From Clostridiaceae bacterium (GTDB lineage: Bacteria > Bacillota > Clostridia > DSM-8532): DNA of 52,528 bases. Shown in pieces: positions 35,249 to 50,872 of this stretch (positions are counted from its first letter, which is position 1; each line of letters opens with the position of its first letter). Both the position numbers and the translations under genes were made by a program. Location of the stretch: contig JAAYAD010000015.1 in NCBI GenBank assembly GCA_012719545.1, forward strand, positions 1 to 52,528, given 5' to 3'. The notes beneath the pieces are model-generated. The model saw only the letters and a list, made by a program, of their open reading frames with translations. It was not told where the DNA came from and did no database searches.

Positions 35249-35284
35249 AAAGCTGAGGCTTTAACAGAGCCTTAGCTTTTTTCA
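35249..35284. terminator. Terminator at the end of the biosynthetic operon
   Basis: AAAGCTGAGGCT and AGCCTTAGCTTT form a stem with a TTAACAG loop, with T or A runs on the sides. It overlaps the fabZ-like stop codon and separates it from the convergent HAD gene. Confidence 0.65.
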
Positions 35285-35724
35285 TGCATTTGTGTAACAA
35301 TGAGCTTTCCCTTTACTACAACCTTGTTTTCTGATGAAATTTTGCCCCTGACTTCAATGAAATTACCGAATATATTGTTGTTTTCCACTTCAATTATCAG
35401 TTGATCACCAGGCTGGACCAGATCAATAAACTTAACTTCCTCTATCTTTGCGATATATCCTACTTTTTCGGCAGCATTTTCATCCTCGGATTCTGTTGCC
35501 GTATAGACAAGGGCAGCCATTTGGGCGAGCATTTCAATGAGAAGAATGCCGGGCACTATGGGCCTTTCCGGAAAATGCCCCTGAAAATAAGGCTCGTTAA
35601 TTGTAATATTTTTTAGCCCTTTGCCATATTTGCCGGGTTGTACTTCAAGAACCCTGTCAATCAGGAGGAATGGGTATCTGTGGGGCAATCGTTTCATTAT
35701 TTCTAAAGCATCCACTTTATACAC
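35272..35724 (-). CDS. FabZ-like 3-hydroxyacyl-ACP dehydratase
   Basis: A 150-aa hot-dog dehydratase with the FabZ signature LPHRYPFLLIDRV and the catalytic pair His50 (FQGHFPERPIVPG) and Glu64 (GILLIEMLAQ). It removes water from 3-hydroxyacyl-ACP to give trans-2-enoyl-ACP. It is the last gene of the operon, 3 bp after the KS-beta-like gene, so it should serve the operon's own acyl chain. No enoyl reductase is encoded nearby, so double bonds may be kept. Confidence 0.9.
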   Translation of the reverse strand: MYKVDALEIMKRLPHRYPFLLIDRVLEVQPGKYGKGLKNITINEPYFQGHFPERPIVPGILLIEMLAQMAALVYTATESEDENAAEKVGYIAKIEEVKFIDLVQPGDQLIIEVENNNIFGNFIEVRGKISSENKVVVKGKLIVTQMHEKS

Positions 35725-35727
35725 TTC

Positions 35728-36795
35728 CTAATTGGCTTTTTCAATAATAACTGAGGTGAAATTGCCATCAACGGTGACCCCGTTAATCATCATGTATTTT
35801 TTCCGGGTCTCTATCATTTTGATGTCAGATGGATCCGCAATATGGGGAATACGACCTGATTTGAGGCACAGTGCCGCTATGCAGATGTCAAGAATGCCTT
35901 CCACCAGGCAGTTGGTATGGGATATGGTATTCAAAGGTATTTTATGTACTGATGGGTCAATTGACTCAATAGCCTCTTTTTCCATATAATACAGCGCATT
36001 TTCACTATTGGCTGTCATAAAGACTCCGGCTAAATCACTGGCCGGAATTGCCGCTCTTTCCAATGCCATTTCCATGCCGCGCTTCATAAACTGGCTTGTA
36101 ACGGGTATGCTTCCATGCTTATAAATTATGGTGCCGTCAATGACATTGGCACATCCAATGATTTTTGCAAGAGGTTTATTGCCGGTTTTCTCAATACTCT
36201 CCGGGGTTTCCAGTAAAAACGCTGCCGCGCCTTCATTGTAACCGTCTTTTAAAATATCATGGTTGGTAAAGTCCTGAAAATAGTCTTCGTTGTATTCGTC
36301 TACGGCGCCCACCAGTAAAGCCGATACCTTTTTGGTTTTCAACAGTCTGTTTGCGTATAAAACCGGGCTTGTATTGACAAGCATGGATGAAGCGCCCTTT
36401 AGCTTGTATCTAATGCATATGGGTCCCAGGCAGGCATTGTTGACAGTTACCGCAAACAGCTTCGGGCTTACGTACTGAACACCGTCGGTGTACAGATCCT
36501 TCAGGAATTTCATATTAACATGGCAAGCCCCAAATTCGGTGGAAAATAAAGTTCCAATGTCGTATTCACCGAGAGCCTCAAGATTGACGGCATCCAATAT
36601 ATTCCTGCAGGCCGCAAGAAGCGACAGTGAATACTTGTCAAGGCCGCTTCTTTCTTTCATGGGCAGGTTATTAGGTATTTTTATAGGTGAAGGATTTGGC
36701 TTGACCTCATTTCGCACAAGCTTGTCAAATATGTCCTCAGGGCTGTCCCCAAGATTATTGAATCCGCAGATTCCTGTAATAAATACCTCTTTCAT
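35728..36795 (-). CDS. Beta-ketoacyl synthase homologue without active-site Cys (KS-beta / chain-length-factor-like)
   Basis: A 355-aa thiolase-fold protein, shorter than typical KS. Aligned to the neighbouring ketosynthase on the shared KG, the nucleophile Cys155 of that protein falls on Ser143 (LVNTSPVLYANR). The NAHGTGT histidine motif is absent (MTANSENALYY); a HTNCLVEG remnant of the second His region remains. It is therefore unlikely to condense on its own and probably pairs with the active KS, as chain-length factors do in aromatic and aryl-polyene type II systems. ATG 36795 is chosen for GAGGGG upstream. Confidence 0.8.
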   Translation of the reverse strand: MKEVFITGICGFNNLGDSPEDIFDKLVRNEVKPNPSPIKIPNNLPMKERSGLDKYSLSLLAACRNILDAVNLEALGEYDIGTLFSTEFGACHVNMKFLKDLYTDGVQYVSPKLFAVTVNNACLGPICIRYKLKGASSMLVNTSPVLYANRLLKTKKVSALLVGAVDEYNEDYFQDFTNHDILKDGYNEGAAAFLLETPESIEKTGNKPLAKIIGCANVIDGTIIYKHGSIPVTSQFMKRGMEMALERAAIPASDLAGVFMTANSENALYYMEKEAIESIDPSVHKIPLNTISHTNCLVEGILDICIAALCLKSGRIPHIADPSDIKMIETRKKYMMINGVTVDGNFTSVIIEKAN

Positions 36796-36812
36796 ATTGG
36801 CCCCTCGCATAA

Positions 36813-37232
36813 TTAATCAAAATATATTTTGTGTTCTTCTATGTACCTTTTTATTTTTTCAGGATATGATGACATAAGCTCATAATTTTTGCTGACAAAG
36901 CAGAGTTTTATTGTTCCCTTTGTATATACGACCTTTTCGCTGTCATCCTGAATTGAAAAGCTGCATAACACATAGGTGCCGTTTCTCATGTCAATATCAA
37001 GGAATACTTTGTGGTAATCTCTCTTATCAATTCTTTGGAGAAATTTTATGCTCATATCCATTACGAGCACATAGTATTCATCTTCAAGAAAACTTTCCAG
37101 GCTGCCGTTGAAGTAATATTCAAAGGCCTCTATTCTTGCTTCTTCCAGGTACTTGTAATAAACGGAGTGATGGACAATTCCATATTGGTCAAAGTCGGAG
37201 AATCTTGGTTTAAATCTGTATGTATATTTCAT
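36813..37232 (-). CDS. Hot-dog acyl thioesterase, 4HBT/YbgC type
   Basis: A 139-aa single hot-dog domain. FSDFDQYGIVHHSVYYKYLEEAR matches the 4-hydroxybenzoyl-CoA thioesterase signature, with Asp15 as the likely catalytic residue. It probably hydrolyses acyl-ACP, releasing the chain or editing stalled intermediates; an acyl-transfer role is conceivable. Its ATG overlaps the ketosynthase stop (TAATG), so translation is coupled. Aryl-polyene clusters carry the same type of enzyme. Confidence 0.85.
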   Translation of the reverse strand: MKYTYRFKPRFSDFDQYGIVHHSVYYKYLEEARIEAFEYYFNGSLESFLEDEYYVLVMDMSIKFLQRIDKRDYHKVFLDIDMRNGTYVLCSFSIQDDSEKVVYTKGTIKLCFVSKNYELMSSYPEKIKRYIEEHKIYFD

Positions 37233-38419
37233 TATGGCTCACCAATCTTGATAAGAACGCTGGAAGAATTGCCGACAAACCCAAAGGAATTGGAAAGAAT
37301 ATAGGAGCTGTTTAAAGGGCTTATTTCATTTACCGGTATCTTGACTTTTCCGCCCTTAAATTCAGGCTCTTTAAGATTATAGGTGGCAGGAATTTGTTTT
37401 TTTAGGCCAAAGATAATGCAGAATGCCAGCTCAATTGCTCCTGCAGTTGCAAGGCAGTGGCCGGTAAGGGACTTTGTGGAAGTAACAATTCCCTCAAAAC
37501 CCAGGCTTTCCAAGGCCTTATACTCCATGGAGTCGTTAAGCCTTGTACCTGTGCCGTGGGCATTTACATATCCCACTTTTTCAACGGGTACATTTCCCTG
37601 TTCCAAAGCCTTTTTCATGACATATAAGGCTCCATTTCCTTCCGGGTCGGGTGCGGTGGGGGAGTAGGCGTCATTGGCAATTGAATAGCCCAGGATTTCT
37701 CCGTAAATTTTGGCCTTTCTTTCAACTGCGCTTTCATACTCTTCCAGAAGAAATGCTACACTGGCCTCGCCAAGATTAATACCGTTTCTGTTTGAGTCGA
37801 AGGGCTTGCAGACTTCTTCATTTAGTGTCTGAAGTATATGGAATCCTGCCATGGACAATTCCGTCAATGGGTCCGCACTGGCAACAAACATTTTTTTCAT
37901 GCTCCCATCGGCAATTGCATCAAAGGCAAGTCCAACAGCGGCGGTGCTGGATGCGCATGCAATGGACGTATTGTATGCCTCACCCTTTATGCCCAGCAAG
38001 GAAGCCATGTAATGAAGAAAGGAGTCACCGGTCAAAAGAGAAGGAATGTTTTTCTTTCCCTGTACTTTACGCCGGGCATATTCCTGCATTTTTAAGACCT
38101 TTAAGGTTGAAGAAGCAATGGATAAGCCTGTGGTGTATGCTTCATTTTTAAGATCATCCTGGGAAAGATTTGCATCCTTTAGTGCTCCTAATATTGCTTT
38201 TCTTAATAATTTGTGGGTTTTTTCTTCCACCGGGTTTTCCTCAAAATTGTCTTCCTCGCAATCAAGAGTACCAATGGGGTATTTTTCAAGGCCTAAATGC
38301 TTGTATGTATCTTTGTGCTCCAGCCCGGTTCTGTTGCTTAAAGCCAATTCATGCATTTCTTCAAGGCAGCTGCCAGCGGCGCTTTCGGCATAAACACCGG
38401 TTATTACAACTCTTTTCAT
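37232..38419 (-). CDS. Beta-ketoacyl-ACP synthase, FabF-like (KS-alpha)
   Basis: A 395-aa ketosynthase with the intact triad: Cys155 in TSIACASSTAAV, His288 in NAHGTGTRLND and His321 in KSLTGHCLATAGA. The C-terminal SNSFGFVGNSSSVLI matches the GFGGxN region. It condenses malonyl-ACP with the growing acyl-ACP. It is divergent from housekeeping FabF, which would normally sit in the fab operon, and is flanked by its own ACP and a KS-beta-like partner. Confidence 0.9.
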   Translation of the reverse strand: MKRVVITGVYAESAAGSCLEEMHELALSNRTGLEHKDTYKHLGLEKYPIGTLDCEEDNFEENPVEEKTHKLLRKAILGALKDANLSQDDLKNEAYTTGLSIASSTLKVLKMQEYARRKVQGKKNIPSLLTGDSFLHYMASLLGIKGEAYNTSIACASSTAAVGLAFDAIADGSMKKMFVASADPLTELSMAGFHILQTLNEEVCKPFDSNRNGINLGEASVAFLLEEYESAVERKAKIYGEILGYSIANDAYSPTAPDPEGNGALYVMKKALEQGNVPVEKVGYVNAHGTGTRLNDSMEYKALESLGFEGIVTSTKSLTGHCLATAGAIELAFCIIFGLKKQIPATYNLKEPEFKGGKVKIPVNEISPLNSSYILSNSFGFVGNSSSVLIKIGEP

Positions 38420-38428
38420 AGTGCCACC

Positions 38429-38710
38429 TTATACCTTACTGTTCTCTTTAAGATTAGAAACCAGCTCCACAAGGGTATTGATGTTCTGAAAATATTTCCT
38501 GTTTTCATTGGCGTTGATTTCTACACCAAAGTTTTTCTTCAATATTACGATGATTTCCAATACGTCAATGGAATCCAGGCCCAGGCCTTCGCCGTCATCA
38601 TTGTAGCCAAAGAGTGGCATGTCATCTTTGAATGCTTCCTCGTCAATGAATAGTTCCAGTCTTTCAATAATCTCTTTTTTCAATATTGATTTCATTTCGT
38701 TCTTATCCAT
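38429..38710 (-). CDS. Acyl carrier protein
   Basis: A 93-aa four-helix carrier protein. Phosphopantetheine attaches to Ser47 in GLGLDSIDVLEI. It is acidic and slightly longer than housekeeping ACP. It is the carrier for the operon's ketosynthases; activation is presumably by the divergent phosphopantetheinyl transferase at 50171. Good ribosome site (GGAGGT). Confidence 0.93.
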   Translation of the reverse strand: MDKNEMKSILKKEIIERLELFIDEEAFKDDMPLFGYNDDGEGLGLDSIDVLEIIVILKKNFGVEINANENRKYFQNINTLVELVSNLKENSKV

Positions 38711-38731
38711 ACTTTAACCTCCAATTTCTTT

Positions 38732-39442
38732 CTAATTGCTTTTTTCCGACATTACCGAGAGGGATCTTATTAATATGCCGTCTTTCAATGCCAAAATTGA
38801 GTCAGCCATTGATGCCATTTCCATGTCGTGGGTCACAGATATAACCGTCTTGTTGTAGTCCCGGGTCATTTGCTTTAATAATGAGTAGATTTGCAAAGAA
38901 TTTTGGTGGTCCAGGTTACCTGTTGGCTCGTCGGCAAAGATGATTGGGCAGTCCAAAACCATGGCTCTGGCAATGCTTACTCTTTGCTGCTCACCTCCGG
39001 ATAAAAGATTGACAGCTTTGTTCCTTTTATCATAGATCCCTATCTTTTTCATCAATTCATTCATAAGCTTTCTTTTCTCATCTGTTGCCGCTTTGGCTAA
39101 AGACAACGGAAGCAGAATATTTTCTTCAACGGTCAGAACGGGGAGCAGATTAAAAAATTGAAATATGAATGCAAAGTTTTTTCTTCTGAACTCGCTCATG
39201 GCTTTATCATTATTGTACTTTTCATTAATTCTCTGACCGTTGAAATATATTTCACCTTCGTCCGCTTCTTCCAGGCCGCTTAGTATATATAAAAGGGTTG
39301 ATTTTCCCGAACCAGACGCACCGGTAATGCAGTAGAGCCTGCCCCGTTCAAATTCAATATTTACTCCCTTTAATACCTGCTGGGTTGAATCTCCGCTTTT
39401 ATAGCTCTTTTTAATGTTTTCTGCCTTTAATATTGCCGACAT
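38732..39442 (-). CDS. ABC transporter ATPase, LolD/MacB type
   Basis: A 236-aa ATPase with Walker A GASGSGKST, signature LSGGEQQR and Walker B CPIIFADEPTGNLD, the typical subclass partnered with FtsX-type permeases. It lies 17 bp after the permease gene. Together they should move the finished peptide, or its lipid-modified form, across the membrane or give self-protection. Confidence 0.93.
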   Translation of the reverse strand: MSAILKAENIKKSYKSGDSTQQVLKGVNIEFERGRLYCITGASGSGKSTLLYILSGLEEADEGEIYFNGQRINEKYNNDKAMSEFRRKNFAFIFQFFNLLPVLTVEENILLPLSLAKAATDEKRKLMNELMKKIGIYDKRNKAVNLLSGGEQQRVSIARAMVLDCPIIFADEPTGNLDHQNSLQIYSLLKQMTRDYNKTVISVTHDMEMASMADSILALKDGILIRSLSVMSEKSN

Positions 39443-39459
39443 TATAGACGACTCCCTTC

Positions 39460-41913
39460 TTACTCTTCTTTTATACTCGCAATAATTGTTCTGTTCTTAA
39501 GCCTTCTTAAAATAAGGCCCAGGCTTAAACAATAAAGAATGAATATATAAAGAGAAATCATCAAAATACTTGATGTATTATAGTGGTAGGAAGCTACTTT
39601 TCCGATGCCTGCGGAAATGGAAGCAATATCAACAAATTCCCAGGTGACAAGTAAACCGGCAATTACGCTTCCGGCTATGCCCGCAATAGCAAGCATGATA
39701 AATTCTGCAAAATTAATTTTCATTATTTCATTCAGGGATGTCCCCATTACCCGCATCAATGCAAATTCCCTTGTCCTGCCGTTGATAAACTGAATCACCT
39801 GATTTGTCAGCATGAACACTCCAATGGTGCTTATAAATACCAGAATTACCTCAATGAACATGGTGCCTTTAATGGCATTGGCACGGTAGCTTTCTTTAAT
39901 TTCTTCCCTGCTTTTTATATTTGGGGTAAAGACGCCATCCGAAAGGGCGGTTTTAATTGTTTCAATACCGGCGTCAATATCCACGCCGTCTTTAAAAATA
40001 ACGGTAATGTTGTTTACGGGGTAAGAATAATATTTTTCATTTAGATACACGACGTTTCCCATATATTCATAGGCATTGCATATGCCCTCAACAGTGATTT
40101 CATAGGTATTAAGATTGTCGGATATGGTTAAGGTATCCCCAACCTTGATATTGCCTTTCTTTGCAAGACTTTCGCCGATGATGGCACCTTTCTTGTTGTC
40201 CGGAAGCCTGGCTTTTTCACCTGTTTTAACGTCAACCAGATTAAAAAATTCTTCAAACTCACTTCCGGATAGAATGTAGCCTTCAATGCGGCTTCCCTCC
40301 AGGGTTAAAAATCTTGAATGGGATGTTTCGACCGACTTGACAATTGGAAGCTTTGATATGTAATTGATTTTTTCATTTATAACATCCTGGGTCTGGTTAT
40401 ATTTCGTAATAAAAACATGGCCATTGTACTGAAGCTCCACCTTATTGGCAGCATCCGTCCTTATGGTGTAAAAAACATTGTACATGCCTATGTGGAATGC
40501 CAGAATGAGAACAAGGGTGCCAAGAACACTGGCTGTTTTCTTTTTGTTTCTTGCCAGATTCTTTAAAGATAGAGCCAAATGCGGTCTTGTATCCATAAAA
40601 ATATACGACAATGCTGAAAGCATATGAAGAACCACTACAACAAAACTTTCAACAGCTTTTACGGCGGCGAAAACTGCAATGGCAGATAATATCATGGTTA
40701 AATTGTCATTTACACTGTTTCTTGCAATAATCAGCACTATAAAGAGAACAAAGTAAAATATACTGTTGGTGACATATTTATTTATAAGATCTTCACTTTC
40801 ATCGTAACCCTGATTTCTGTAAAGAAGAAGCAGCCGGATTGGTTTATGCTTTTTATACTTTCCTATTTCCATTGACATAAAGACATATGGAGCGGCTATG
40901 GAAACAACAAGGCTTGCCAGAAGAACTATGGGCTTTGGGAGAATGAAGCCTGCAAAGCCATACCTTGAATAAATTATTAAATTGCCAATAAGAATCCCAA
41001 GAAGGACACCTACTGCTTCTCCAATTGCCCCCAGAAGCAGAACCATATTCTGATACAGCACCGCTGCTTTTTGATGGCTTAAGCCAATGGTTCTTAAAAA
41101 GCCGATATGCTCAATATTTTCAGAAATTATTGTTTTGGAAAAGTTATATAGCCCGCCGAATACTACGCCAATAAGGCCTATAAGTATAAAGCTGACAGCA
41201 TAGATAAAGCTTTGAGTGCTTTCTTTCCGGTGCAAATCTATTTTATCAACGATACTGTGGCTTATAAGATTATCAAATTTTTGGGAGAACTGAGCCACAT
41301 CGCTGCCGGATACATTGCCTAAGTCCACCAGAAACACGTTTTTTGCAATTTCACCGCCAAAGGTGCTGGCATAGTAGCCTTCGGACATATATACATTGAT
41401 TTGATTGGTATTGGCGACCTCATAAAAGCTTTTTTCGTCCAGTATATTTGCGATATTAACCGTTTTGGTTATTCCGTTGACGGTTAATTCGAAGCCATCA
41501 GGTCCAGTTCCCAAAAGCTTCAGCGAATCGCTGCCAAGGCAAATACCGTCAAGGTTTCCGATAACTTTACCATCAATATTTTTTATATCATTAAGAAGAT
41601 TGTGATTTTCAAAATCAAGTATATGCAATATGATGCTGTGACTTCCTAAGCTTGCAGGAATATTGCTTTGCCATGCTATGTTTTTTACTTCCTCCTGATT
41701 TATGAGCCTAATGTATGTATCACTTTCGCCCTTGGTATCATAGAAAACTGCGTCAATCTTGCCGTATTTCTCGTTTATCTCTCTTTCCATGTCATGCAAA
41801 GAATAGTCAATGTACAGCAAACTGGCTATAAAGACAGTTACGCACAGGACTATTGCAAATAAAATACTTTTGCAGTTATCACTATTGGCTTTGATTAACT
41901 TTAAGCTTACCAT
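39460..41913 (-). CDS. FtsX/MacB-type ABC transporter permease
   Basis: An 817-aa permease with one N-terminal helix, a large outer domain (about 35-235), a first FtsX membrane block (about 240-460), a second outer domain (about 490-680) and a second FtsX block (about 690-805, with REFALMRVMGTSLNEI). This duplicated arrangement is that of BceB/MacB-like mechanotransmission exporters. It pairs with the ATPase downstream. Position directly after the M50 protease suggests export or immunity for the operon's peptide. Confidence 0.88.
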   Translation of the reverse strand: MVSLKLIKANSDNCKSILFAIVLCVTVFIASLLYIDYSLHDMEREINEKYGKIDAVFYDTKGESDTYIRLINQEEVKNIAWQSNIPASLGSHSIILHILDFENHNLLNDIKNIDGKVIGNLDGICLGSDSLKLLGTGPDGFELTVNGITKTVNIANILDEKSFYEVANTNQINVYMSEGYYASTFGGEIAKNVFLVDLGNVSGSDVAQFSQKFDNLISHSIVDKIDLHRKESTQSFIYAVSFILIGLIGVVFGGLYNFSKTIISENIEHIGFLRTIGLSHQKAAVLYQNMVLLLGAIGEAVGVLLGILIGNLIIYSRYGFAGFILPKPIVLLASLVVSIAAPYVFMSMEIGKYKKHKPIRLLLLYRNQGYDESEDLINKYVTNSIFYFVLFIVLIIARNSVNDNLTMILSAIAVFAAVKAVESFVVVVLHMLSALSYIFMDTRPHLALSLKNLARNKKKTASVLGTLVLILAFHIGMYNVFYTIRTDAANKVELQYNGHVFITKYNQTQDVINEKINYISKLPIVKSVETSHSRFLTLEGSRIEGYILSGSEFEEFFNLVDVKTGEKARLPDNKKGAIIGESLAKKGNIKVGDTLTISDNLNTYEITVEGICNAYEYMGNVVYLNEKYYSYPVNNITVIFKDGVDIDAGIETIKTALSDGVFTPNIKSREEIKESYRANAIKGTMFIEVILVFISTIGVFMLTNQVIQFINGRTREFALMRVMGTSLNEIMKINFAEFIMLAIAGIAGSVIAGLLVTWEFVDIASISAGIGKVASYHYNTSSILMISLYIFILYCLSLGLILRRLKNRTIIASIKEE

Positions 41914-41932
41914 TGTTTCACTCCCAGCTGGT

Positions 41933-43021
41933 TTATATAAGCAATATAATTTCCTTAATTATTTTATATACCCAGGTAATTGTAATATATAAATTAATAC
42001 CCATAATTGACATACTTGAAATTAAATATAGAAAAAATAGAAGCCTGTTTTTATCGGGGATTTTTGCATCGCGTTTTTTTATAATGTTTCTTAAATATTG
42101 CCACATCTTTGTTCTAAGACCATTGATGCCTAAAAGATTCATTAACATAAAATAGCCGTCGTTCATTAAAAAGGGGGAAATATTTATAAGGATAAAGTGA
42201 AAATTCACTAAAAATATAATGCCGCAAAGATCCAACAACCTTTCGGGCATGCCGGAAATACCCATCAATGCCAGGGCCGTAGCCGCCATAACAATGTTGG
42301 TTCTAAGGCCTGCCGACAATATGGCAATCTTCCTCTTTCTGTCAAGAGCGATCATTTCGGGATACTGTGTATAATACATGGGAATAAAGCCTGCATATAG
42401 GGCGACACTGAAATCAAGACGGGACATATTCTGCCTGACAGCCTCAAGAACATGAGCAATTTCGTGTATTGCGATAACAACCATGCTGACGGCCATGCTC
42501 ATGAGTGCCCCCTGTATGGAAGACTTATTGTAGGTGAAAAAATGGTTCCTGCTGCTTAAAATGACCGCGTCAAGATTAACCAGTATCATAACCAATGAGA
42601 CCAGTACCAATATAGGCTCCAGCCATCTTGTAAAGGACAGTGCTTTTGAGGCTTTAATGAGGAAGCTTGGCATCTCATTTATGTTGGTTGAATACAAATG
42701 CACTCCCATCATTTTTACCTCACTGGTCTCCAGACGGCTTTGCGAGTTCTCCATAAGGCCCATGTCGTCTAAATAGGACTTTAATTCTCCAATATTAATC
42801 TTATAGGCCAGTTTATCCAATATCATCTTTTCAATTTCTTCATCAGAAAGCTGCTGTTCCTTTAATGTGTTATATATAAACTGAATGATTTTATATTGGA
42901 CTGAACTGACCCTTATTGAAATCTGCCTTTCTATGCTTCCAATAATATAAAATTTTTTTCTGCCCAAGGATTTGTCTTCCAGAAAGAATAAATCCTTTGC
43001 AAGGGTAAGCTGATTTTCCAT
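41933..43021 (-). CDS. M50-type membrane metalloprotease (YydH-like)
   Basis: About 362 aa. An N-terminal soluble segment of about 120 residues may bind the substrate peptide. The membrane part has the zinc site HEIAH (H188, E189, H192 counted from the GTG two codons earlier) and the third-ligand motif NISPFLMNDGYF (Asp290). This is the signature of site-2-protease-like peptide zinc metalloproteases found beside radical SAM peptides such as YydF. It probably cleaves the leader from the modified precursor. ATG 43021 is chosen for AAGGTG upstream; it follows the radical SAM gene closely. Confidence 0.85.
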   Translation of the reverse strand: MENQLTLAKDLFFLEDKSLGRKKFYIIGSIERQISIRVSSVQYKIIQFIYNTLKEQQLSDEEIEKMILDKLAYKINIGELKSYLDDMGLMENSQSRLETSEVKMMGVHLYSTNINEMPSFLIKASKALSFTRWLEPILVLVSLVMILVNLDAVILSSRNHFFTYNKSSIQGALMSMAVSMVVIAIHEIAHVLEAVRQNMSRLDFSVALYAGFIPMYYTQYPEMIALDRKRKIAILSAGLRTNIVMAATALALMGISGMPERLLDLCGIIFLVNFHFILINISPFLMNDGYFMLMNLLGINGLRTKMWQYLRNIIKKRDAKIPDKNRLLFFLYLISSMSIMGINLYITITWVYKIIKEIILLI

Positions 43022-43030
43022 AACCACACC

Positions 43031-44407
43031 TTATGATACCGACTTATATTCCTGTGCAGCTTTTTTCAGGTTGTTCATGAAAAGCCTGCTTTTGTCCTTG
43101 TTTATAAGTAGTTCGGCAATCTCTTTCAAAACATAGTTGACTGTAATGTCTACCACCATGCACCTTGAATTTACTGTGGACAATATTTTCCCGTTGCTTA
43201 AAACGCTTGAGCCTGCACACCACAGGAAACACAAATTGCGGTTTTTGCAATTTCGGCATTTCTTTATATCATATCTGTTGTTTATGTATTTTCTGAAGTT
43301 CACTACTTCTTCGCTGTCCTCAAAACCTTCATCAAGGCTTCCCAGCCTCATGTATCTGGTATTGTAAAGCAGATGGCATGGATACAGTTCTCCTTCAGGA
43401 TTAACAAATAATGTACCCAGCCCTGCCTTGCAGAAGCGGTTGGCTCTTTTCATGAAGATATTGCCAAAGACCCCCACAAAATGGCCGGGAGGAAGTTGCT
43501 TCATCTTTTCAGACAGGAATAATTCCATGTAGTAATCGTATACGCCCTTGAAAAAGAGCCTCAGCCGTTCATAATATTCATAGCTGTCTATGGATATATC
43601 CTTGTCCTTGCTGTCCACCGGGAAAACGTAAACTGTGTCAAAGCCTAAATTATAAAGGTTTTTGACAAAATTGTACCCGCCTTCAACTTCATTTCCTTTA
43701 AGCAGATCAAGATGCTTTTTGTGTATGGTGGCTTCCGCAATTAAAGGGAAGTTTCTACCTTTCTCTTTAAGATACAGTAAATTTCTTTTTATGGTGCTGA
43801 AGCTGCCTTTCCCGTTAGGGAAGACCCTGGCGCTGTCATGCAATTCTTCTATGCCATCAATGCTTATTGACAGATATATGTTCTTCTCATTAAGAAAGTT
43901 AATAAGTCTATCATTTATTAATACTCCGTTGGATATGATGGAATATCTGGGCGGAGTAAAATTTCTCTCCTCAAACATTGAGTTTAAAATATCCACAGCT
44001 TCCATTATGGTATCGAGCCTAAGAAGCGGCTCTCCGCCGAAAAAGCAGACAAAGGTTGTACCTTCCTTAAAATGCTCAAACATGAAATTGAAGGTTTTCA
44101 CATAATCCTCAAGGGCCATATGCTTTTTGGAATTTTCGTTTTTGTATGTACCTTTGGAAACCATGCAGTAATCGCAAGCCAGATTGCATGTCTCGGTAGT
44201 GTTTAAAATAAGGCCAGAAAGACGGTTTGGGTTGCTCTTACGGCTCTCTAAAAGAACCTTTTCCACATCCGGTTCATTTTTGAGCTTTTCTTCAATAGAA
44301 TTAAGATCGGTGAAATTATTTTTTATAATGGTAACATTCATGGTAGGTACATGCAGTGCAATATTAATATCTTCATTTACATTAACTATCTTGAAATTGC
44401 TATCCAT
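43031..44407 (-). CDS. Radical SAM/SPASM peptide maturase
   Basis: A 458-aa enzyme. Residues 1-65 may be a leader-binding region. The radical SAM cluster motif is CNLACDYC (C74, C78, C81), followed by FFGGEPLL. The C-terminal SPASM domain has all seven cysteines (C326, C344, C384, C387, C393, C397, C416), so two auxiliary 4Fe-4S clusters are expected. Such enzymes make thioether (sacti-/ranthipeptide) or C-C crosslinks, or other changes, on ribosomal peptides. The three-Cys precursor gene lies just upstream, pointing to thioether formation (inference). The exact chemistry cannot be told from sequence. Confidence 0.93.
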   Translation of the reverse strand: MDSNFKIVNVNEDINIALHVPTMNVTIIKNNFTDLNSIEEKLKNEPDVEKVLLESRKSNPNRLSGLILNTTETCNLACDYCMVSKGTYKNENSKKHMALEDYVKTFNFMFEHFKEGTTFVCFFGGEPLLRLDTIMEAVDILNSMFEERNFTPPRYSIISNGVLINDRLINFLNEKNIYLSISIDGIEELHDSARVFPNGKGSFSTIKRNLLYLKEKGRNFPLIAEATIHKKHLDLLKGNEVEGGYNFVKNLYNLGFDTVYVFPVDSKDKDISIDSYEYYERLRLFFKGVYDYYMELFLSEKMKQLPPGHFVGVFGNIFMKRANRFCKAGLGTLFVNPEGELYPCHLLYNTRYMRLGSLDEGFEDSEEVVNFRKYINNRYDIKKCRNCKNRNLCFLWCAGSSVLSNGKILSTVNSRCMVVDITVNYVLKEIAELLINKDKSRLFMNNLKKAAQEYKSVS

Positions 44408-44419
44408 AAAATCGCCTCG

Positions 44420-44466
44420 TTTATAAAATCGAATAAGTTTCCTTCACCTCTACTCGATTTTATAAA
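44420..44466 (-). promoter_or_regulatory. Hairpin between precursor and maturase genes
   Basis: A perfect 13-bp stem (44420-44432 with 44454-44466) and a 21-nt loop lie in the 114-nt gap after the precursor gene and just before the GAGG ribosome site of the radical SAM gene. It has no long T run. It probably limits or processes the transcript so that more precursor than enzyme is made. Confidence 0.5.
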
Positions 44467-44521
44467 TTTAAATTTTTACTTTATTAACGGTCCCTTAATG
44501 GATTATTTGATATCTATGTAA

Positions 44522-44650
44522 TTAGTTATTGTCGCAGCCGCAAACTGTTCCACCGATACCTGCACAGATAACTTCTTCGATAGCCTCCATATCGGAGAAG
44601 TCAACGATTTCATAGTTCTCAACCTTTGTTATATCGAACTTATTCATCAT
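44522..44650 (-). CDS. RiPP precursor peptide, 42 aa, three Cys
   Basis: A 42-codon ORF with a perfect ribosome site (AAGGAGG) that starts ATG-ATG; the second ATG (44647) has the better 7-nt spacing. The leader is acidic and rich in Ile/Val/Phe (MNKFDITKVENYEIVDF, then SDMEAIEEVI). The C-terminal part CAGIGGTVCGCDNN holds all three cysteines (C29, C37, C39), several Gly and one Thr. It sits directly before a radical SAM/SPASM maturase and an M50 protease, the classic position of a modified-peptide precursor. Cys-rich, Gly-rich cores next to SPASM enzymes are typical of thioether peptides. No known family member is recognised. Confidence 0.85.
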   Translation of the reverse strand: MMNKFDITKVENYEIVDFSDMEAIEEVICAGIGGTVCGCDNN

Positions 44651-44695
44651 TTTACCTCCTTCCGTATTTCAATCTGAGTGTATGGTGAAGAAAAC

Positions 44696-45772
44696 TTATT
44701 CGCCATGTAAAACTTCTCTTAAGCGGGAAACCGCAGCTTCTTCCGCCGATGCCAAATTACAGATAATTGAGTAGAACTTTTCGTAATACTTCTTTGGATT
44801 TCTGTAGAAATAGGGCATATTCACCTGGTACAATATTCTGACGAACTCTCTCCAATGCTTTCCCAATGCGATAAATTCCTCTCCGGACTCTTTAAGGAGC
44901 GGATTATACTTACCAAGATAAATCAGGGAATTGCCGATTTCGCTGCGGAATGCTGTTTTGCTTCCCTTATCCTGATAAAGCCTCATGATATTTAATCTGT
45001 AAGCCAGTATTTTAAGGTATCTTTCATCCTCAGAATCTGTGAATTTGTTAATTAATGCCTTTACTTCTTCGTTAAGAGCGGCAAAGGAGCTCTTTCCCGA
45101 AACTCCATATTTTTTTGATTCTTCATCATATTGATATTTGCTGACTTCGGTAAGGTATATATCACAAGCTCTTTTTAAATCGTCCAAAATAACAGGGTAG
45201 AGAGAATCTTCGTTTTTATGGATGCTTTCATCTATTTCAAGAAATACGGTATGCTCATACAGCTTATTTTCTTCATATGCTTTAAAATTCAGCCTGATGG
45301 GTTTTCCGTCCAGATCCACAACATTTAAATAAAAGTACTCATCATCATAATTTTCAATAATTCCAAAGGAATTGAACATGAATCTTCCCATGTTGATAAC
45401 AGGGGTGTTTGAAACGCTTATAACCTTGTCCTTATGTACTTTACGGACATTAAAATCAAAGTAGACTCCAACATCTCTGCCTTCATCCACATATTTTTTT
45501 ATTTCATCAATGGAGCTGGTTGGAACGGGTGATTCTTTAATGCCAAAATAATTCATTATCTTTTTTTCGCAATACTCGTTATATGTAATCATGAACCAAA
45601 GGAGCTGCTGCTTGTAATTTTCCAGCCCGAACTGCAAGAACTCGTCAAGCCCCAAAAGGAATATAATGTGCTCGCTGATATCAATATTTTTTGTTTTGAG
45701 GTAATAGCAAAGAGTTTGAATTTTGCAGTGTTCAATATTATCTTTTACATTCCTTTTCAGCAGCAATTTCAT
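44696..45772 (-). CDS. BtrH-N-like protein, putative ACP-dependent acyltransferase
   Basis: About 358 aa. The N-terminal part NIEHCKIQTLCYYLKTKNID followed by ISEHIIFLLGLDEFLQFG matches the HC...L..G..ISE...FGLG..L.F pattern of BtrH_N/DUF4872 proteins, with a candidate catalytic Cys. A VGVYFDFN strand and a mainly helical C-terminal half follow. BtrH moves an acyl group from a carrier protein to an amine in butirosin biosynthesis (established). Here the neighbour on one side is the precursor peptide, and an ACP is in the operon, so acyl transfer onto the peptide is the natural hypothesis. ATG 45772 is chosen for GGGTGA upstream; the gene overlaps the aminotransferase end. Confidence 0.6.
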   Translation of the reverse strand: MKLLLKRNVKDNIEHCKIQTLCYYLKTKNIDISEHIIFLLGLDEFLQFGLENYKQQLLWFMITYNEYCEKKIMNYFGIKESPVPTSSIDEIKKYVDEGRDVGVYFDFNVRKVHKDKVISVSNTPVINMGRFMFNSFGIIENYDDEYFYLNVVDLDGKPIRLNFKAYEENKLYEHTVFLEIDESIHKNEDSLYPVILDDLKRACDIYLTEVSKYQYDEESKKYGVSGKSSFAALNEEVKALINKFTDSEDERYLKILAYRLNIMRLYQDKGSKTAFRSEIGNSLIYLGKYNPLLKESGEEFIALGKHWREFVRILYQVNMPYFYRNPKKYYEKFYSIICNLASAEEAAVSRLREVLHGE

Positions 45773-47129
45773 AATATGCTTCACCCGTTTTATTTATTAA
45801 AATTTGGTGGCATTTTCTAAATCCGCTGTCCAGTATAGCTGCAATTCTGTCGCAATAGGTTTCGTCAATTGTGAGGGGAGGTGCTATTAAAATGGCTTGT
45901 CCTCTATCATTGCAAGGATAGACAATTAATCCTTTCTGGCAAAGAAAATCTCTTAGCAAATAGCTTAATTCCACAGGCTTAAATTTATTGCTGTATTCTT
46001 CGCTGAGAATAACCGCAATCAAAAGTCCTTCACCCTGAACGCAGCTTATAAAATGATATTTTTCTTTCAGGGCGCTTATTTTTTGTTTAAGTAATATCCC
46101 CATTTTATGCGAATTTTCAATTAAATTATTTTTTTCAATATAATCAATCACTGCCAGCGCACATTGGCAGGCGATAGGGTTTCCGCTTGTGGTAAAGCCA
46201 TGTCTGAATAATTTATTCTTATATGAACCTTCCAGATTTAAAAATGCGTTGAATATTTCGGAAGTTGCCATAACTGCGCCTAAAGGGATATAGCCCGATG
46301 TAATGCCTTTGGCCAGCATCATTATGTCAGGATAAAAACCTGCCTTCTCCATATAGAACATGTATCCGCATCTGCCAAAACCCGTGGCAACTTCATCGGA
46401 CATTAAGAGAAAATTATATTTTTCCTTAAGCTTTTTAAGCCCTTGCAAGTAGCTTACAGGCAGTATATTTACCTCGTTACTTAACTGCACCGGTTCAAAG
46501 ATTAGGGCGGCTATACTGTCGGCTCCTTCATTTACTATGCATTCTTCAAGCTTGTCCAACGCTTTTTTGACTTCAGCTTTTTCATTCACAGAATCCTTGC
46601 TTATAAAGGTGTCTACGCTTACAAACCCGTCAAGCCTTAATCTCAACGGCTCAACATCCGAATCAAAGGTGCAGGTGCTGAGAGCCCCCAGGGTGCTGCC
46701 GTGATAACACCCTTTCAGGCTGATAATCTTATATTTGTTAATATCCTGGTTCCAATAGTACTGCTGCACCATTTTTATTGCAGTGTCGCATGCTTCCGAA
46801 CCGCTGTTTACAAAGAATACGTGCTTAAAATGGTTGTTGGTTAGTGCGCAAAGTTTTTTTGCCAAATGATATGAAGGCTCCGTTGTAGTTCTAAATACCG
46901 TACCCGCGCTCATTTTCAGCAGTTGCTCATTGATTGCCCGGATAACCTCCCTGTTGCCGTACCCTAATGAACAGTTGAACATTGAAGACATGCCGTCGAT
47001 GTGCTTTTTATCTCTGTTATTGGTTACAATAAGCCCTTCTGCTTCTGTCAGCAAATTGTATTGAGACTTGTATTGGTACATATCAGTCCATGTATTCCAG
47101 ACAAAAAACTTGTCTTCCAAATTGTTCAC
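45738..47129 (-). CDS. Class III PLP aminotransferase
   Basis: A 463-aa fold-type I enzyme of the BioA/omega-transaminase group: FVNSGSEACDTAIKM (phosphate cup), GCYHGSTLGALS, FEPVQ, LLMSDEVATGFGR (Asp245) and LAKGITSGYIPLG with the PLP lysine Lys274. It transfers an amino group to an aldehyde or keto substrate. Within an acyl-chain operon it could aminate a beta-keto or terminal carbonyl group, as stand-alone transaminases do in other lipopeptide pathways. It starts with GTG after AAGGGGG and overlaps the acyltransferase-like gene by 35 bp. Confidence 0.9.
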   Translation of the reverse strand: MNNLEDKFFVWNTWTDMYQYKSQYNLLTEAEGLIVTNNRDKKHIDGMSSMFNCSLGYGNREVIRAINEQLLKMSAGTVFRTTTEPSYHLAKKLCALTNNHFKHVFFVNSGSEACDTAIKMVQQYYWNQDINKYKIISLKGCYHGSTLGALSTCTFDSDVEPLRLRLDGFVSVDTFISKDSVNEKAEVKKALDKLEECIVNEGADSIAALIFEPVQLSNEVNILPVSYLQGLKKLKEKYNFLLMSDEVATGFGRCGYMFYMEKAGFYPDIMMLAKGITSGYIPLGAVMATSEIFNAFLNLEGSYKNKLFRHGFTTSGNPIACQCALAVIDYIEKNNLIENSHKMGILLKQKISALKEKYHFISCVQGEGLLIAVILSEEYSNKFKPVELSYLLRDFLCQKGLIVYPCNDRGQAILIAPPLTIDETYCDRIAAILDSGFRKCHQILINKTGEAYYEIAAEKECKR

Positions 47130-47181
47130 TTTGCTACCCCCTTACTTATATATGTGATTGTAATGGGCAAATTAAAATGAT

Positions 47182-47922
47182 TTACACCATTTTGGAATAA
47201 CCGTTATCAATCACAATTGTTTGACCGTTAATGGCTTCATAATCCAGCAATACACTTATGCACAACCTCGCTGTTTCCCTTACCTTAACGAAAACTCTGG
47301 GAAGAAGGGCATAGCTGTCAACAAGATTTTTGTCTTCCATCATGGATGCAAGAAATTTATTTATAAATTTTGTCCGCATAAGTCCGGGCGCTATGCAATT
47401 AGCCGAGATGTTGTATTCCGAGTATTCCTTTACTGTAGTCTCCATAAAGGCTTTAAGCCCTGCCTTGGATATTGAGTAGGAAGAAAAATTCTTCCTGGTT
47501 ATTTCCGAAAATACCGATGATACATACAGGATTCTGCCAAACTTATTTTTCATCATATAGGGCAGAACACACTTGGTTGCAATTATTGGATTTAAGACAT
47601 TTTGTCGGAAGGTATCCAAATATTTCTCCGCAGGCTCTTCCATTATGCTGCCATAGCTCATAATTCCGGCACAGTATAATAGGTAGCCTATGGTTTTGCC
47701 AAGCTTTCCGCTTGCCGTTTCAAGTATCTCAGCCATCAGCTCTTCATTGCCTGCGTCAAAAGAGTATGCAAGAATGCTCTTATTAACATCCTCGTAATTT
47801 AAGACATCTTTGTCCTTATCTATAAGGATAAGAGGCAATTCTCTTTCCGAAAGGTCCTTTACAATTGCCTTTCCAAGCTGCCCGCAGGCGCCTGTTACAA
47901 CCACAATCTTATCACTGGACAC
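47182..47922 (-). CDS. Short-chain dehydrogenase/reductase with atypical Rossmann loop
   Basis: A 246-aa SDR with YSISK at the catalytic Tyr/Lys and a Ser in YVSSVF. The nucleotide loop reads TGACGQLG, not the classical TGxxxGxG, so cofactor geometry may differ. It probably reduces a keto group on an ACP-bound intermediate or oxidises an alcohol before transamination. It overlaps the FabG-like gene by 11 bp and starts with GTG. Confidence 0.85.
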   Translation of the reverse strand: MSSDKIVVVTGACGQLGKAIVKDLSERELPLILIDKDKDVLNYEDVNKSILAYSFDAGNEELMAEILETASGKLGKTIGYLLYCAGIMSYGSIMEEPAEKYLDTFRQNVLNPIIATKCVLPYMMKNKFGRILYVSSVFSEITRKNFSSYSISKAGLKAFMETTVKEYSEYNISANCIAPGLMRTKFINKFLASMMEDKNLVDSYALLPRVFVKVRETARLCISVLLDYEAINGQTIVIDNGYSKMV

Positions 47923-48646
47923 TCAAACCACCGTCTATCACAATACATTGGCCTGTAATATAGCCGGATAAGTCCGAAGCTAAGAACAGTACCAGATTGC
48001 ACACGTCTTCAACTTTTCCGAAGCGCCTTAACGGTATTGACTTTAAGTATTCCTTTTTTACCGCGGGATCAATTGTGTCCAGCATGTCGGTTTCAATGTA
48101 TCCGGGAGCAATAGCATTAACTCTTATATTCTTTGCTGCAAGTTCCATGCTCAATGTTCTTGTAAGGGCTATGATGCCGGCTTTTGAAGCACTGTAATTT
48201 CCCTGACCCTTAACGCCTTTTAAGGCTGATACCGATGTAATGTTAATAATATTGCCCTTTCTTTTTTCCAGCATCTTTCGGGAAACATGCTTTAAGTAGT
48301 AGAAACAGCCGTTTAAATTGACATCAATAACCTTGTTCCAGACTTCCACATCCATAAGAGGTATTAATTGATCTGAAACAATGCCTGCGTTGTTTACAAG
48401 AATGTCGATAGTATCAAAGCCCTCGATAAACTTTTCTATCAATGTTTCATTGGTGGAATCAACCTTATGGGCAAAGACATTCAAACCATTCTGTTTTGCT
48501 TCTGCTAGAAAGTTCAGCATATCAGCATTTTCTTTTGTGTATGTAAAATGGACAAAAGCACCTCTTTGGGCAAAAGCTTTAACTATGCCATGGCCTATTC
48601 CGCGGCTTCCTCCGGTTATAATTACTGTTTGGCCTTCAAAATTCAC
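47912..48646 (-). CDS. FabG-like 3-oxoacyl-ACP reductase
   Basis: A 244-aa classical SDR: TGGSRGIGHGI, NNAG, ITSVSALKG with the catalytic Ser, YSASKAG and the C-terminal GQCIVIDGGLSVQ. It is close to FabG in length and motifs, so it likely reduces 3-oxoacyl-ACP with NADPH for the operon's elongation cycle. Strong coupling with the atypical SDR downstream (11-bp overlap). Confidence 0.9.
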   Translation of the reverse strand: MNFEGQTVIITGGSRGIGHGIVKAFAQRGAFVHFTYTKENADMLNFLAEAKQNGLNVFAHKVDSTNETLIEKFIEGFDTIDILVNNAGIVSDQLIPLMDVEVWNKVIDVNLNGCFYYLKHVSRKMLEKRKGNIINITSVSALKGVKGQGNYSASKAGIIALTRTLSMELAAKNIRVNAIAPGYIETDMLDTIDPAVKKEYLKSIPLRRFGKVEDVCNLVLFLASDLSGYITGQCIVIDGGLSVQ

Positions 48647-48652
48647 AGAAGC

Positions 48653-49336
48653 TTACCTCCCATACGGACAATAATAGAAATCTTTTAATTTCAGTCCGTT
48701 TTTTCTTCCCAGTGAGTACCAGTAAAAATAGGTTATTATTTTGTATATCAGCTTGCTTATCCGGAAATTTACGAATTTATTGGTACCCTGGGCTTTAGGT
48801 TCTTCTTCCTTATACAGCTTTTCAATATGATTGATTAATTCATTAATGCTTTTTTCCACAGGGCCTTTCAGGTAGGAATCTATAATAGGTACAGTATTAA
48901 AGCTTGTCAGCAGTTGCCCGCAGCCTATGCCTATCCCTCCGGAATAAACCCTGCCGATTTTTCTGCCAAACTGCTCTATGATGTTAAGGACGCAGCGGGT
49001 ATGTATGGGCTCATAAAAACCACAGTTTGATATGCCGAAGATGTACCTTTTATTGTCGTCAAGGCTGGTTTTTATACTGTCATATAACGTGTAAGTATCC
49101 TTCATGGTCTTTAAAAGTCCAGAAGGAGGCGCATCTATATAAACGGGAGAAATCACGATTATTATCTTTTCTGTTATTAATTTTTGAAGCTCGGATTGGG
49201 TGGGATTTGATTTAACTGTAAGTGTGAGTGTATTAATACCTTTGTCGTTTAGAGCGGATTCGATTTTTTTTTCTATGTATTGAGATACGCTTTTTCTTAA
49301 GGTATGACTTCCAATTAATATGACAACATTGCTCAT
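48653..49336 (-). CDS. Flavodoxin-fold protein (NADPH-dependent FMN reductase-like)
   Basis: A 227-aa protein. The N-terminal VVILIGSHTLRKSVSQYI fits the phosphate-binding loop of the FMN reductase family; IIVISPVYIDAPPSGLLKTM matches the flavin-binding second loop (SPVY...P..LK). The C-terminal 50 residues are basic and aromatic (FRISKLIYKIITYFYWYSLG), possibly a membrane-surface anchor. The role is unknown; it may deliver electrons to the radical SAM enzyme or reduce an intermediate (inference). Confidence 0.7.
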   Translation of the reverse strand: MSNVVILIGSHTLRKSVSQYIEKKIESALNDKGINTLTLTVKSNPTQSELQKLITEKIIIVISPVYIDAPPSGLLKTMKDTYTLYDSIKTSLDDNKRYIFGISNCGFYEPIHTRCVLNIIEQFGRKIGRVYSGGIGIGCGQLLTSFNTVPIIDSYLKGPVEKSINELINHIEKLYKEEEPKAQGTNKFVNFRISKLIYKIITYFYWYSLGRKNGLKLKDFYYCPYGR

Positions 49337-49344
49337 TTTGCACC

Positions 49345-49902
49345 TTACAGTTTTATAAGGCTGTTATTTAATAGCTTATGAAAATCAATGGTCTGATTCT
49401 TCTCAATGATGAAGTGCCTGTGCTTGTCCCTATGCATATTTACTGCGTTTAAAGATGTCAAAGCAGCGAATAGCTTCTTTTCTTCCTCTGATATGTGTTC
49501 AGCGTATCCAATCATTATGTATTCGGGATATTTCCGATATCTTGGAGCGTGATACATCTTGTTTTGCCTTTCTTCAAAAAAAGGCAACATATTTGGTATC
49601 AACCGTTCCAAACACTTTTTTATCTCTGCACTGTAGCAGCCAAAATCAATTCGGGCGAATATAATGAAAAGGTCGGCGTGGAAAAATAATTTGCTAAGAT
49701 TATCGATGCTGTCTTTTATCCGGCAGGAACCAGGTGACTTTATCCAACATGAATAGCAGGAAACGCATGGTTTAACGATTTCTTTTTTGATGAAGAAAAT
49801 ATCGGGTTTAATTCCGCTTTGACTGAGTGCATTTATTAAGGCATTGAAATTAATATAATCAGAATTGCTGTCATCAATATCTGTAAGCACCAATACTCTC
49901 AA
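49345..49902 (-). CDS. Cys-rich flavodoxin-fold protein (iron-sulfur flavoprotein-like)
   Basis: A 185-aa protein, first gene of the operon. PCVSCYSCWIKSPGSC resembles the Cys cluster of iron-sulfur flavoprotein or FMN-reductase relatives (C-x2-C-x2-C-x7-C). Later flavin-loop residues (IIFARIDFGCYSAEIKKCLERL) are partly preserved. A redox-carrier role for the operon is plausible. The start is TTG with GGAGG 12 nt before it, a rather long spacing, so expression may be tuned down. Confidence 0.65.
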   Translation of the reverse strand: MRVLVLTDIDDSNSDYINFNALINALSQSGIKPDIFFIKKEIVKPCVSCYSCWIKSPGSCRIKDSIDNLSKLFFHADLFIIFARIDFGCYSAEIKKCLERLIPNMLPFFEERQNKMYHAPRYRKYPEYIMIGYAEHISEEEKKLFAALTSLNAVNMHRDKHRHFIIEKNQTIDFHKLLNNSLIKL

Positions 49903-49958
49903 TAATGCTATCAGCCTCCAATCGCTGGGTAAATCCCTTATTTTTTTACTGCTTGTAC

Positions 49959-50002
49959 AAATTTACAACTAACATTATAATTGTAAGTTTAATAGATGTC
50001 AA
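49959..50002 (-). promoter_or_regulatory. Promoter and inverted-repeat operator of the biosynthetic operon
   Basis: On the minus strand TTGACA (50002-49997), exactly 17 nt, TATAAT (49979-49974). An inverted repeat AAATTTACAA / TTGTAAGTTT (49959-49968 and 49981-49990, 9 of 10 matched) brackets the -10 box, as a repressor operator would. No regulator gene lies nearby. The transcript would start about 65 nt before the first gene. Confidence 0.7.
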
Positions 50003-50170
50003 GAATTTCTAGTTTACATTTATCGACACAATTTTTCTTGAAATTAGGTTAAACAGGTTTATTAGTAAAAATACCGCTTTCATACCAGTAAAAAATATTT
50101 AATTGATACAATTTAAGTATTTATTTTTCCGTGTTTTTCCTGTATTTTAAGAATTAGCAAGGCATGAAGG

Positions 50171-50872
50171 ATGGTATTAATTGTCGAAATTTATATATTA
50201 AAAATCGAAAATCTTCTTGGGACAGATACCATCAACTTATTAAAAGAATTTGTGCAGGAAGAAAAGAAAAACCAATTAGGCCATTTTTCACAAGGTACAT
50301 ATGCTCAAAATACCCTGCTGGGAGATGTATTGGCAAGATATGCCGTATGCAAAAGACTGGGGGTAAAAAATAAAGACCTGATTTTTGGAAAAAATGCGTA
50401 TGGTAAGCCGGTGCTGCTTAAGCCTGGAGGAATTCATTTTAATATTTCACATTCAGGGAAGTGGATAGCATGTGCAGTTGATGAAAATAGTGTAGGAATA
50501 GATATAGAAATAATTGAATCTATTGATTTTACGTCCTGTGAAAGCATTCTTTCAAAAGAAGAATGCGCGTACCTTGAAGCATTGCCCCAAGACACAAAAT
50601 TGAAGTATTTTTACATGATCTGGACCCTGAAGGAAAGTTACGTAAAAATGAAGGGGAAAGGCCTATATATACCTTTTAACTCCTTTTCAATCAGGGTTGA
50701 GAACGGCAATATAAGAATGGAACCAAATGAAGAAAATCTTTACTTTTACCAGTCCTTTTTATGTGATGATGTACTTTACTCTGTCTGTACAAAAAGCCAT
50801 GCTATTCCGGAAAAGATTATATATTGGAACACAGATACCTTCTTTAAACATATACAGAATATAAGAGGGTGA
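50171..50872 (+). CDS. 4'-Phosphopantetheinyl transferase, Sfp type
   Basis: A 233-aa protein of Sfp length. HFNISHSGKWIACAV, VGIDIEIIE (Mg2+-binding Asp/Glu) and WTLKESYVKMKGKGL are the family's three key motifs. It adds phosphopantetheine from CoA to Ser of carrier proteins. It is divergent from the operon that encodes an ACP, which it probably activates. The ribosome site is weak (AAGG next to the ATG). Confidence 0.92.
   Translation: MVLIVEIYILKIENLLGTDTINLLKEFVQEEKKNQLGHFSQGTYAQNTLLGDVLARYAVCKRLGVKNKDLIFGKNAYGKPVLLKPGGIHFNISHSGKWIACAVDENSVGIDIEIIESIDFTSCESILSKEECAYLEALPQDTKLKYFYMIWTLKESYVKMKGKGLYIPFNSFSIRVENGNIRMEPNEENLYFYQSFLCDDVLYSVCTKSHAIPEKIIYWNTDTFFKHIQNIRG

Follow-up and report, generated by a model that had tools for sequence, protein, structure and literature searches.

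In the window analysed here, the whole 52,528-nucleotide (nt) contig JAAYAD010000015.1 of a Clostridiaceae bacterium (genome 2.95 Mb, in a class that also holds Ruminiclostridium), one minus-strand operon combines genes for a ribosomal peptide and its radical S-adenosylmethionine (SAM) maturation with genes for building a chain on a carrier protein, and with a gene for a diverged relative of the acyltransferase BtrH. Judged from the encoded proteins, an acylated, radical-modified peptide is a plausible product. We give an even chance to the more specific proposal that the product is a Cys-rich peptide, modified by the radical SAM enzyme and carrying a chain assembled on the acyl carrier protein (ACP) that the cluster itself encodes. 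By analogy with characterized relatives, the best reading is that the BtrH/DarH-type protein would join the carrier-bound chain to the modified peptide.

Organization of the operon

The 16 genes lie close-packed between positions 35272 and 49902. Gaps of at most 52 nt separate the genes at 14 of the 15 junctions, three of which are overlaps (-47, -11 and -1), and the largest junction, 114 nt, lies between the precursor and the radical SAM gene. Terminator-like sites within the run were not commoner than in shuffled sequences (9 versus 14 in a consensus scan), and an Rfam search of 34-52.5 kb gave no match. In transcriptional order the genes are:

49345-49902, minus strand: flavoprotein with a CxxCxxCx7C motif, of the NADPH-FMN reductase/iron-sulfur flavoprotein type (E=7e-4 against Pfam FMN_red, below cut-off; relative in the G380 cluster described below)
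48653-49336, minus strand: flavodoxin-like protein with weak EFR1/FMN-reductase similarity (NCBIfam EFR1, E=0.0011, below cut-off)
47912-48646, minus strand: short-chain dehydrogenase/reductase (SDR), FabG-type 3-ketoacyl-ACP reductase (TIGR01830, E=1.7e-82, 277 bits versus a cut-off of 298; PRK12826.1-2 above its cut-off)
47182-47922, minus strand: second SDR (Pfam adh_short, E=3e-33)
45738-47129, minus strand: class III pyridoxal-phosphate-dependent aminotransferase (Pfam Aminotran_3, E=6e-83)
44696-45784, minus strand: BtrH-like protein of the papain-like acyltransferase family, Cys20 kept and catalytic His lost (profile comparison and alignments)
44522-44650, minus strand: precursor peptide MMNKFDITKVENYEIVDFSDMEAIEEVICAGIGGTVCGCDNN, 42 residues with three Cys (leader/core motif common to the precursors of six relatives)
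43031-44407, minus strand: radical SAM/SPASM maturase (Pfam Radical_SAM, 4e-17; SPASM, 3e-6)
41933-43027, minus strand: M50-type membrane metalloprotease, HEIAH ... NDGYF (NCBIfam daptide_HExxH, 5e-15, and YydH/LiaK, 1.5e-9, both below cut-offs)
39460-41913, minus strand: FtsX/MacB-type ATP-binding cassette (ABC) permease (Pfam FtsX, MacB_PCD)
38732-39442, minus strand: ABC transporter ATPase, LolD-like (Pfam ABC_tran)
38429-38710, minus strand: ACP with a 'DSI' motif (Pfam PP-binding, 7e-7)
37232-38419, minus strand: ketosynthase (KS) alpha, Cys155/His288/His321 intact (Pfam ketoacyl-synt)
36813-37232, minus strand: 4HBT hot-dog thioesterase (Pfam 4HBT_2/4HBT, above cut-off)
35728-36810, minus strand: KS-beta/chain-length factor (CLF)-like protein without an active-site Cys (no Pfam match at 1e-3; fabF-like, E=2e-11; profile matches KS/CLF chains in the PDB)
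35272-35724, minus strand: FabZ-type 3-hydroxyacyl-ACP dehydratase (NCBIfam FabZ, above cut-off)

Two further features lie just upstream of the first gene or diverge from it:

49974-50002, minus strand: sigma-70-type promoter match, TTGACA-17-TATAAT, 12 of 12 positions (consensus match only)
50171-50872, plus strand: divergent Sfp-type phosphopantetheinyl transferase (Pfam ACPS, 1e-17)

A sequence-only reading had proposed a single operon of these 16 genes with a three-Cys precursor, and both its layout and its gene assignments stand, as does the Cys count; the two flavoproteins at the operon head (48653-49902) did not figure in it. The peptide genes stand between two groups of acyl genes.

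The peptide and acyl genes

The translated maturase carries a CxxxCxxC motif and seven Cys in its SPASM region, with invariant Cys among them, and its Pfam scores lie above cut-off, which places it in the Radical SAM/SPASM superfamily. Its best NCBIfam model is PapB (NF047865; 4e-52, 177 of 340 bits). Scores below the curated cut-offs led us to reject membership of either PapB or SCIFF. The precursor gene is preceded by a strong Shine-Dalgarno sequence, GGAGG. In the precursors of all related clusters, the leader is short and acidic and closes with E-(D/E/S)-(I/V/L/T)-(V/I/A)-(C/T/V)-(P/A); a core rich in Gly and Cys comes after it. As a pattern, this motif has one match in the six frames of the window, the precursor itself, and at the other loci it finds the known precursors only; being derived from these same sequences, it measures specificity and is not an independent discovery.

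KS-beta lacks the Cys-His-His residues that KS-alpha keeps, so that an active KS and a co-encoded paralogue without catalytic Cys form a type II KS/CLF pair. The best solved match of the KS-beta profile is chain C of entry 9s5h, of which KS-alpha matches chain B. Since the genome carries its own FabF elsewhere, apart from this pair, the KS/CLF set is a dedicated one. A KS/CLF pair with an ACP, a ketoreductase and a dehydratase yields a carrier-bound chain. Membership of an 'ACP-related' peptide maturation family was considered and rejected, as no such family occurs among the matches of the carrier proteins.

Related clusters

Relatives were sought with radical SAM, M50 and BtrH queries in 1856 genomes over all searches and in a scan of a species-representative collection; absence here means that no homologue of the queries turned up in the stretches covered, and the counts come from a few loci in a sampled set of genomes. 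A contig scan with an M50 alignment returned two true relatives only. The G380 cluster (L037/L038, Ruminiclostridium family) holds the radical SAM enzyme, M50 protease, FtsX, ABC, BtrH, ACP, KS-alpha, FabZ, KS-beta and SDR genes in one run, together with a nonribosomal peptide synthetase (NRPS) module (adenylation, peptidyl carrier protein and condensation domains), Sfp, two 4HBT proteins, a flavoprotein and three precursors; its SDR is 45% identical to the FabG-type SDR of the window. The G422 cluster (L067) reads NRPS, NRPS, major facilitator superfamily transporter, free carrier protein, BtrH-like protein, precursor, radical SAM enzyme and M50 protease, with the precursor between the BtrH-like and radical SAM genes as in the window. 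A free carrier-protein gene directly adjoins the BtrH-like gene in both G422 and G380.

The remaining clusters are simpler. Ruminiclostridium hungatei (G312; L034/L052) encodes BtrH, five tandem precursors, the radical SAM enzyme, M50 protease, ABC and FtsX proteins, a histidine kinase and a response regulator; G353 (L100) encodes BtrH, two precursors, the radical SAM enzyme and M50 protease; and G929 (L118) has a precursor, the radical SAM enzyme, M50 protease, and a kinase and regulator. A seventh locus, G114 (L033), carries a precursor, radical SAM, M50, ABC and FtsX genes on a contig too short to judge, and an upstream fragment considered as the end of a condensation domain was not counted as NRPS because Pfam gave it no support. 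Counting the window, six clusters are readable and keep their peptide genes intact; BtrH occurs in five of them, a carrier protein in three, a KS pair in two and NRPS genes in two.

The sequence-only reading had treated the peptide and acyl halves as one linked system. This link is borne out in the window by the single operon, and it recurs in G380 and, with a carrier protein and NRPS genes, in G422. Judged by the refuting condition set out with that reading, homologous clusters in which the halves stand apart as a rule, it needs qualifying: the KS/CLF set is missing from four of the six readable clusters (R. hungatei, G353, G929 and G422), and is therefore an optional module, whereas the BtrH-like gene travels with the peptide half. 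On this gene content, the BtrH-like gene is nearly a core member of the peptide family and the assembly line a variable plug-in.

We also considered whether the aminotransferase and an SDR might aminate the peptide C terminus as in daptides, with an unrelated KS set. The M50 protease and the aminotransferase do match daptide models (5e-15 and 7e-78), but at 55 of 300 and 262 of 450 bits both fall far below the curated cut-offs, and the aminotransferase scores higher against bioA-type models. Daptides use a C-terminal Thr; the precursor ends in Asn, and the related clusters showed no aminotransferase. Daptide membership was rejected, and amination of this kind appears very improbable.

The BtrH-like protein and the case for acyl transfer

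The designation of the window protein as BtrH-like, made earlier from the sequence, is weak for this copy alone and finds its confirmation through relatives. Against Pfam BtrH_N it scores E=0.0099 and 16.5 bits, below the curated cut-off of 29.7, and searches with its sequence alone recovered no relatives, as it is too diverged; the G422 counterpart reaches E=0.0013. A two-sequence profile of both compared by hhalign with the clear BtrH-like set gave a probability of 98.7% over 312 columns, indicating homology along most of the sequence. The proteins of G380, R. hungatei and G353 lie above the BtrH_N cut-off, and that of G380 matches NCBIfam DarH, 'BtrH-related acyltransferase', with E=7e-20 along most of the protein. 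Searched against PDB sequences, the BtrH profile had no real match. Homology of the window protein to the BtrH family is thus supported by profile comparison. Its further description as a BtrH-type transferase fares less well: the copy is a real homologue that has lost the catalytic His, acyl transfer would have to be read from the family and may proceed in another way, and catalysis by this copy is in doubt.

BtrH-like proteins also stand beside or fused to NRPS proteins in Ruminiclostridium-family genomes (L044, L045, L046, L047 and L108-L111), with no RiPP (ribosomally synthesized and post-translationally modified peptide) genes seen nearby.

Several observations weigh against joining of chain and peptide by this protein. 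Foremost, the window protein, which aligns with its relatives at the catalytic Cys (EHCKIQ), has Asn-Ser-Phe in place of the relatives' HxV-motif His, and the G422 protein lacks both residues; Cys and His are both kept in G380, R. hungatei and G353. The predicted precursor core contains no Lys, and the acylation site would therefore have to be the new N terminus, a Cys or a Thr. Neither a carrier protein nor a KS was found in the peptide clusters of R. hungatei and G353, and the 16-kb contig of G929 shows no BtrH, KS set or carrier. The KS-alpha proteins of the window and G380 resemble each other no more than they resemble FabF, and so give no evidence for shared descent of the acyl modules.

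The main rival explanation is one operon with two partner products: the acyl half would make an amino-fatty or beta-amino acid that the 4HBT protein sets free and that acts together with a separately matured peptide, and the BtrH-like protein would be a vestige or a binding protein. Both composite clusters, the window and G380, encode a thioesterase, and a thioesterase frees the product in cispentacin biosynthesis (PMC10698177). The loss of the catalytic His and the peptide halves found without acyl genes fit this explanation as well. We nevertheless regard it as unlikely, because five of the six readable clusters keep the BtrH-like gene, whose known relatives take acyl groups from carriers, and because this gene has a free carrier-protein gene as its direct neighbour in G422 and G380. 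Alternatively, the BtrH-like protein might process the precursor as a papain-like peptidase or transpeptidase, with the acyl half a more recent chance neighbour; BtrH_N belongs to a papain-like group near the C39 family (PMC10318531), and in R. hungatei and G353 BtrH accompanies peptide genes with no acyl genes nearby. This we consider quite improbable, given that an M50 processing protease is already present at all loci, that BtrH has acyl or NRPS genes beside it in three different arrangements (window, G380 and G422), which chance joining would not lead one to expect, and that acyl genes flank the window peptide genes on both sides.

Proposed pathway

We return to the simplest reading, in which the chain ends up on the peptide. 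The operon layout, the domain identities and the recurrence of BtrH, precursor, radical SAM and M50 genes with differing assembly lines are observed, whereas each chemical step below, the acceptor atom, the conjugate itself and the part played by the copy without the His are inferred. Sfp would activate the ACP, on which KS-alpha and KS-beta would extend malonyl units from the host fatty acid synthase, with SDR and FabZ carrying out beta-processing. An enoyl reductase would be borrowed or absent, and the chain may therefore be short, unsaturated or both. The class III aminotransferase would next aminate a keto group of the carrier-bound chain, which in the window is probably amino-acyl, as AmcC does on beta-ketoacyl-ACP in cispentacin biosynthesis, where this class III enzyme acts on a carrier-bound keto acid from a KS/CLF-like pair (PMC10698177). 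The SPASM enzyme, perhaps with electrons from the flavoproteins, would cross-link the core Cys residues (CAGIGGTVCGCDNN). The BtrH-like protein, as enzyme or scaffold, would then transfer the chain from its carrier onto the peptide, much as BtrH, an ACP:aminoglycoside acyltransferase (PMC10318531), does to its aminoglycoside. The last steps would be cleavage by the M50 protease close to the EEVI/C(T)P motif and export of the product through the FtsX-type ABC system, unless that system confers immunity instead.

Comparison with known systems

BtrH of butirosin and the DarH/DarE-type proteins belong to the same family and are likewise encoded beside ACP and KS genes. The dialkylresorcinol cluster of Azoarcus, with ACP and KS genes, also includes a BtrH-like gene (PMC3949708). 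BtrH is known, and DarH thought, to pass an acyl group from its carrier on to a nucleophile; in the window the acceptor would be a ribosomal peptide, and the catalytic His is missing. PapB- and SCIFF-type SPASM RiPPs (ranthipeptides and sactipeptides) share the SPASM maturase and a short Cys-rich precursor, but the window scores below every curated cut-off, its precursor has no CX3D/E or SCIFF pattern, and it adds the M50 protease, BtrH and acyl genes. The cispentacin/coronafacic acid type II polyketide synthase-like pathway has in common a KS with a non-catalytic partner, an ACP, hot-dog enzymes and a class III aminotransferase whose substrate is, or in the window would be, a keto acid bound to its carrier, whereas no AmcH homologue was seen in the window and that pathway involves no peptide. 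YydF/LiaK epipeptide and daptide clusters share a peptide, a modifying enzyme, an M50-type membrane protease and an ABC exporter; they use other modification enzymes and no carrier protein or KS, and their models score below cut-off.

Lipolanthines, goadvionins, selidamides and nostolysamides embody the same idea of a ribosomal peptide with a fatty or polyketide chain. To our knowledge they use other modification and acyl-transfer enzymes, with no radical SAM enzyme, KS/CLF pair or BtrH family member, and among the proteins of 35-52 kb we found no lanthionine synthetase and no lipolanthine, goadvionin or selidamide acyltransferase. As far as we know, the enzyme set is new, while lipidated RiPPs themselves are a known idea. 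The open-access literature yielded no report that joins BtrH with a precursor peptide, or of hybrid RiPPs with this gene combination.

Further observations on the loci

The precursor gene is bracketed by the arms of an inverted repeat (18 of 19 positions paired; fold z=-4.3):

44684-44702, no strand: 19-nt arm, upstream of the precursor in the mRNA
44430-44448, no strand: 19-nt arm, downstream of the precursor in the mRNA

Inverted repeats of 15-19 nt enclose the precursor gene or genes in four of the seven related clusters, similar in placement and unrelated in sequence: besides the window, L033 (G114; 2237-2255/2470-2488, 17/19), L038 (G380; 16777-16791/17300-17314, 15/15) and L100 (G353; 8845-8859/9280-9294, 15/15). 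None was seen in L067 (G422), L034 (R. hungatei) or L118 (G929). Same-locus sliding controls never reached the score (0/530, 0/78, 0/185 and 0/188), and 8 of 6000 random places across all loci did. The repeats perhaps pair over a long range in the mRNA, forming a stem that would isolate or shield the precursor message, or mark an invertible segment. In the gap between precursor and radical SAM gene, the stretch 44412-44470 contains a 16-nt hairpin (44420-44435/44451-44466) whose loop carries the strong Shine-Dalgarno-like GAGGTGAAGG, about 40 nt upstream of the radical SAM start.

The five precursor genes of R. hungatei are near-identical tandem 162-bp units (L034, 8256-9056). Similar pairs of sensor kinase and LytTR-like response regulator adjoin two clusters (L034, 15264-17323; L118, 9802-11867), and an AgrB-like gene adjoins that of G380 (L038, 17610-18239), all assigned by eye; the peptides may act as signals or stand under peptide control.

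In Defluviitalea phaphyphila, FtsX and ABC genes (L051, 1088-4266, against window positions 38732-41913) are 74% and 82% identical to those of the window and accompany a damaged M50 gene, whereas the FabF proteins of the two genomes share only 60% identity; together these suggest horizontal transfer followed by decay. No KS beyond the FabF-like one was found in that genome, and the transporter has perhaps been kept for immunity.

Implications for the peptide family

The recurrence of similar clusters in unrelated Clostridia suggests, from gene content, a peptide family made for joining to carrier-built chains. More broadly, and with somewhat less than even confidence, we propose an undescribed Clostridial peptide family in which a core of precursor, SPASM enzyme, M50 protease and BtrH-like protein would take chains from interchangeable carrier-protein lines, polyketide/fatty-acid or NRPS, to give ribosomal-polyketide or ribosomal-nonribosomal hybrids. 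Because the G380 BtrH retains both catalytic residues, the transfer step is directly testable in vitro there. If the proposal is correct, radical-SAM chemistry with BtrH-family transfer would join the few known routes for attaching fatty or polyketide chains to ribosomal peptides, and the BtrH/DarH family would offer a handle for finding such hybrids in other genomes.

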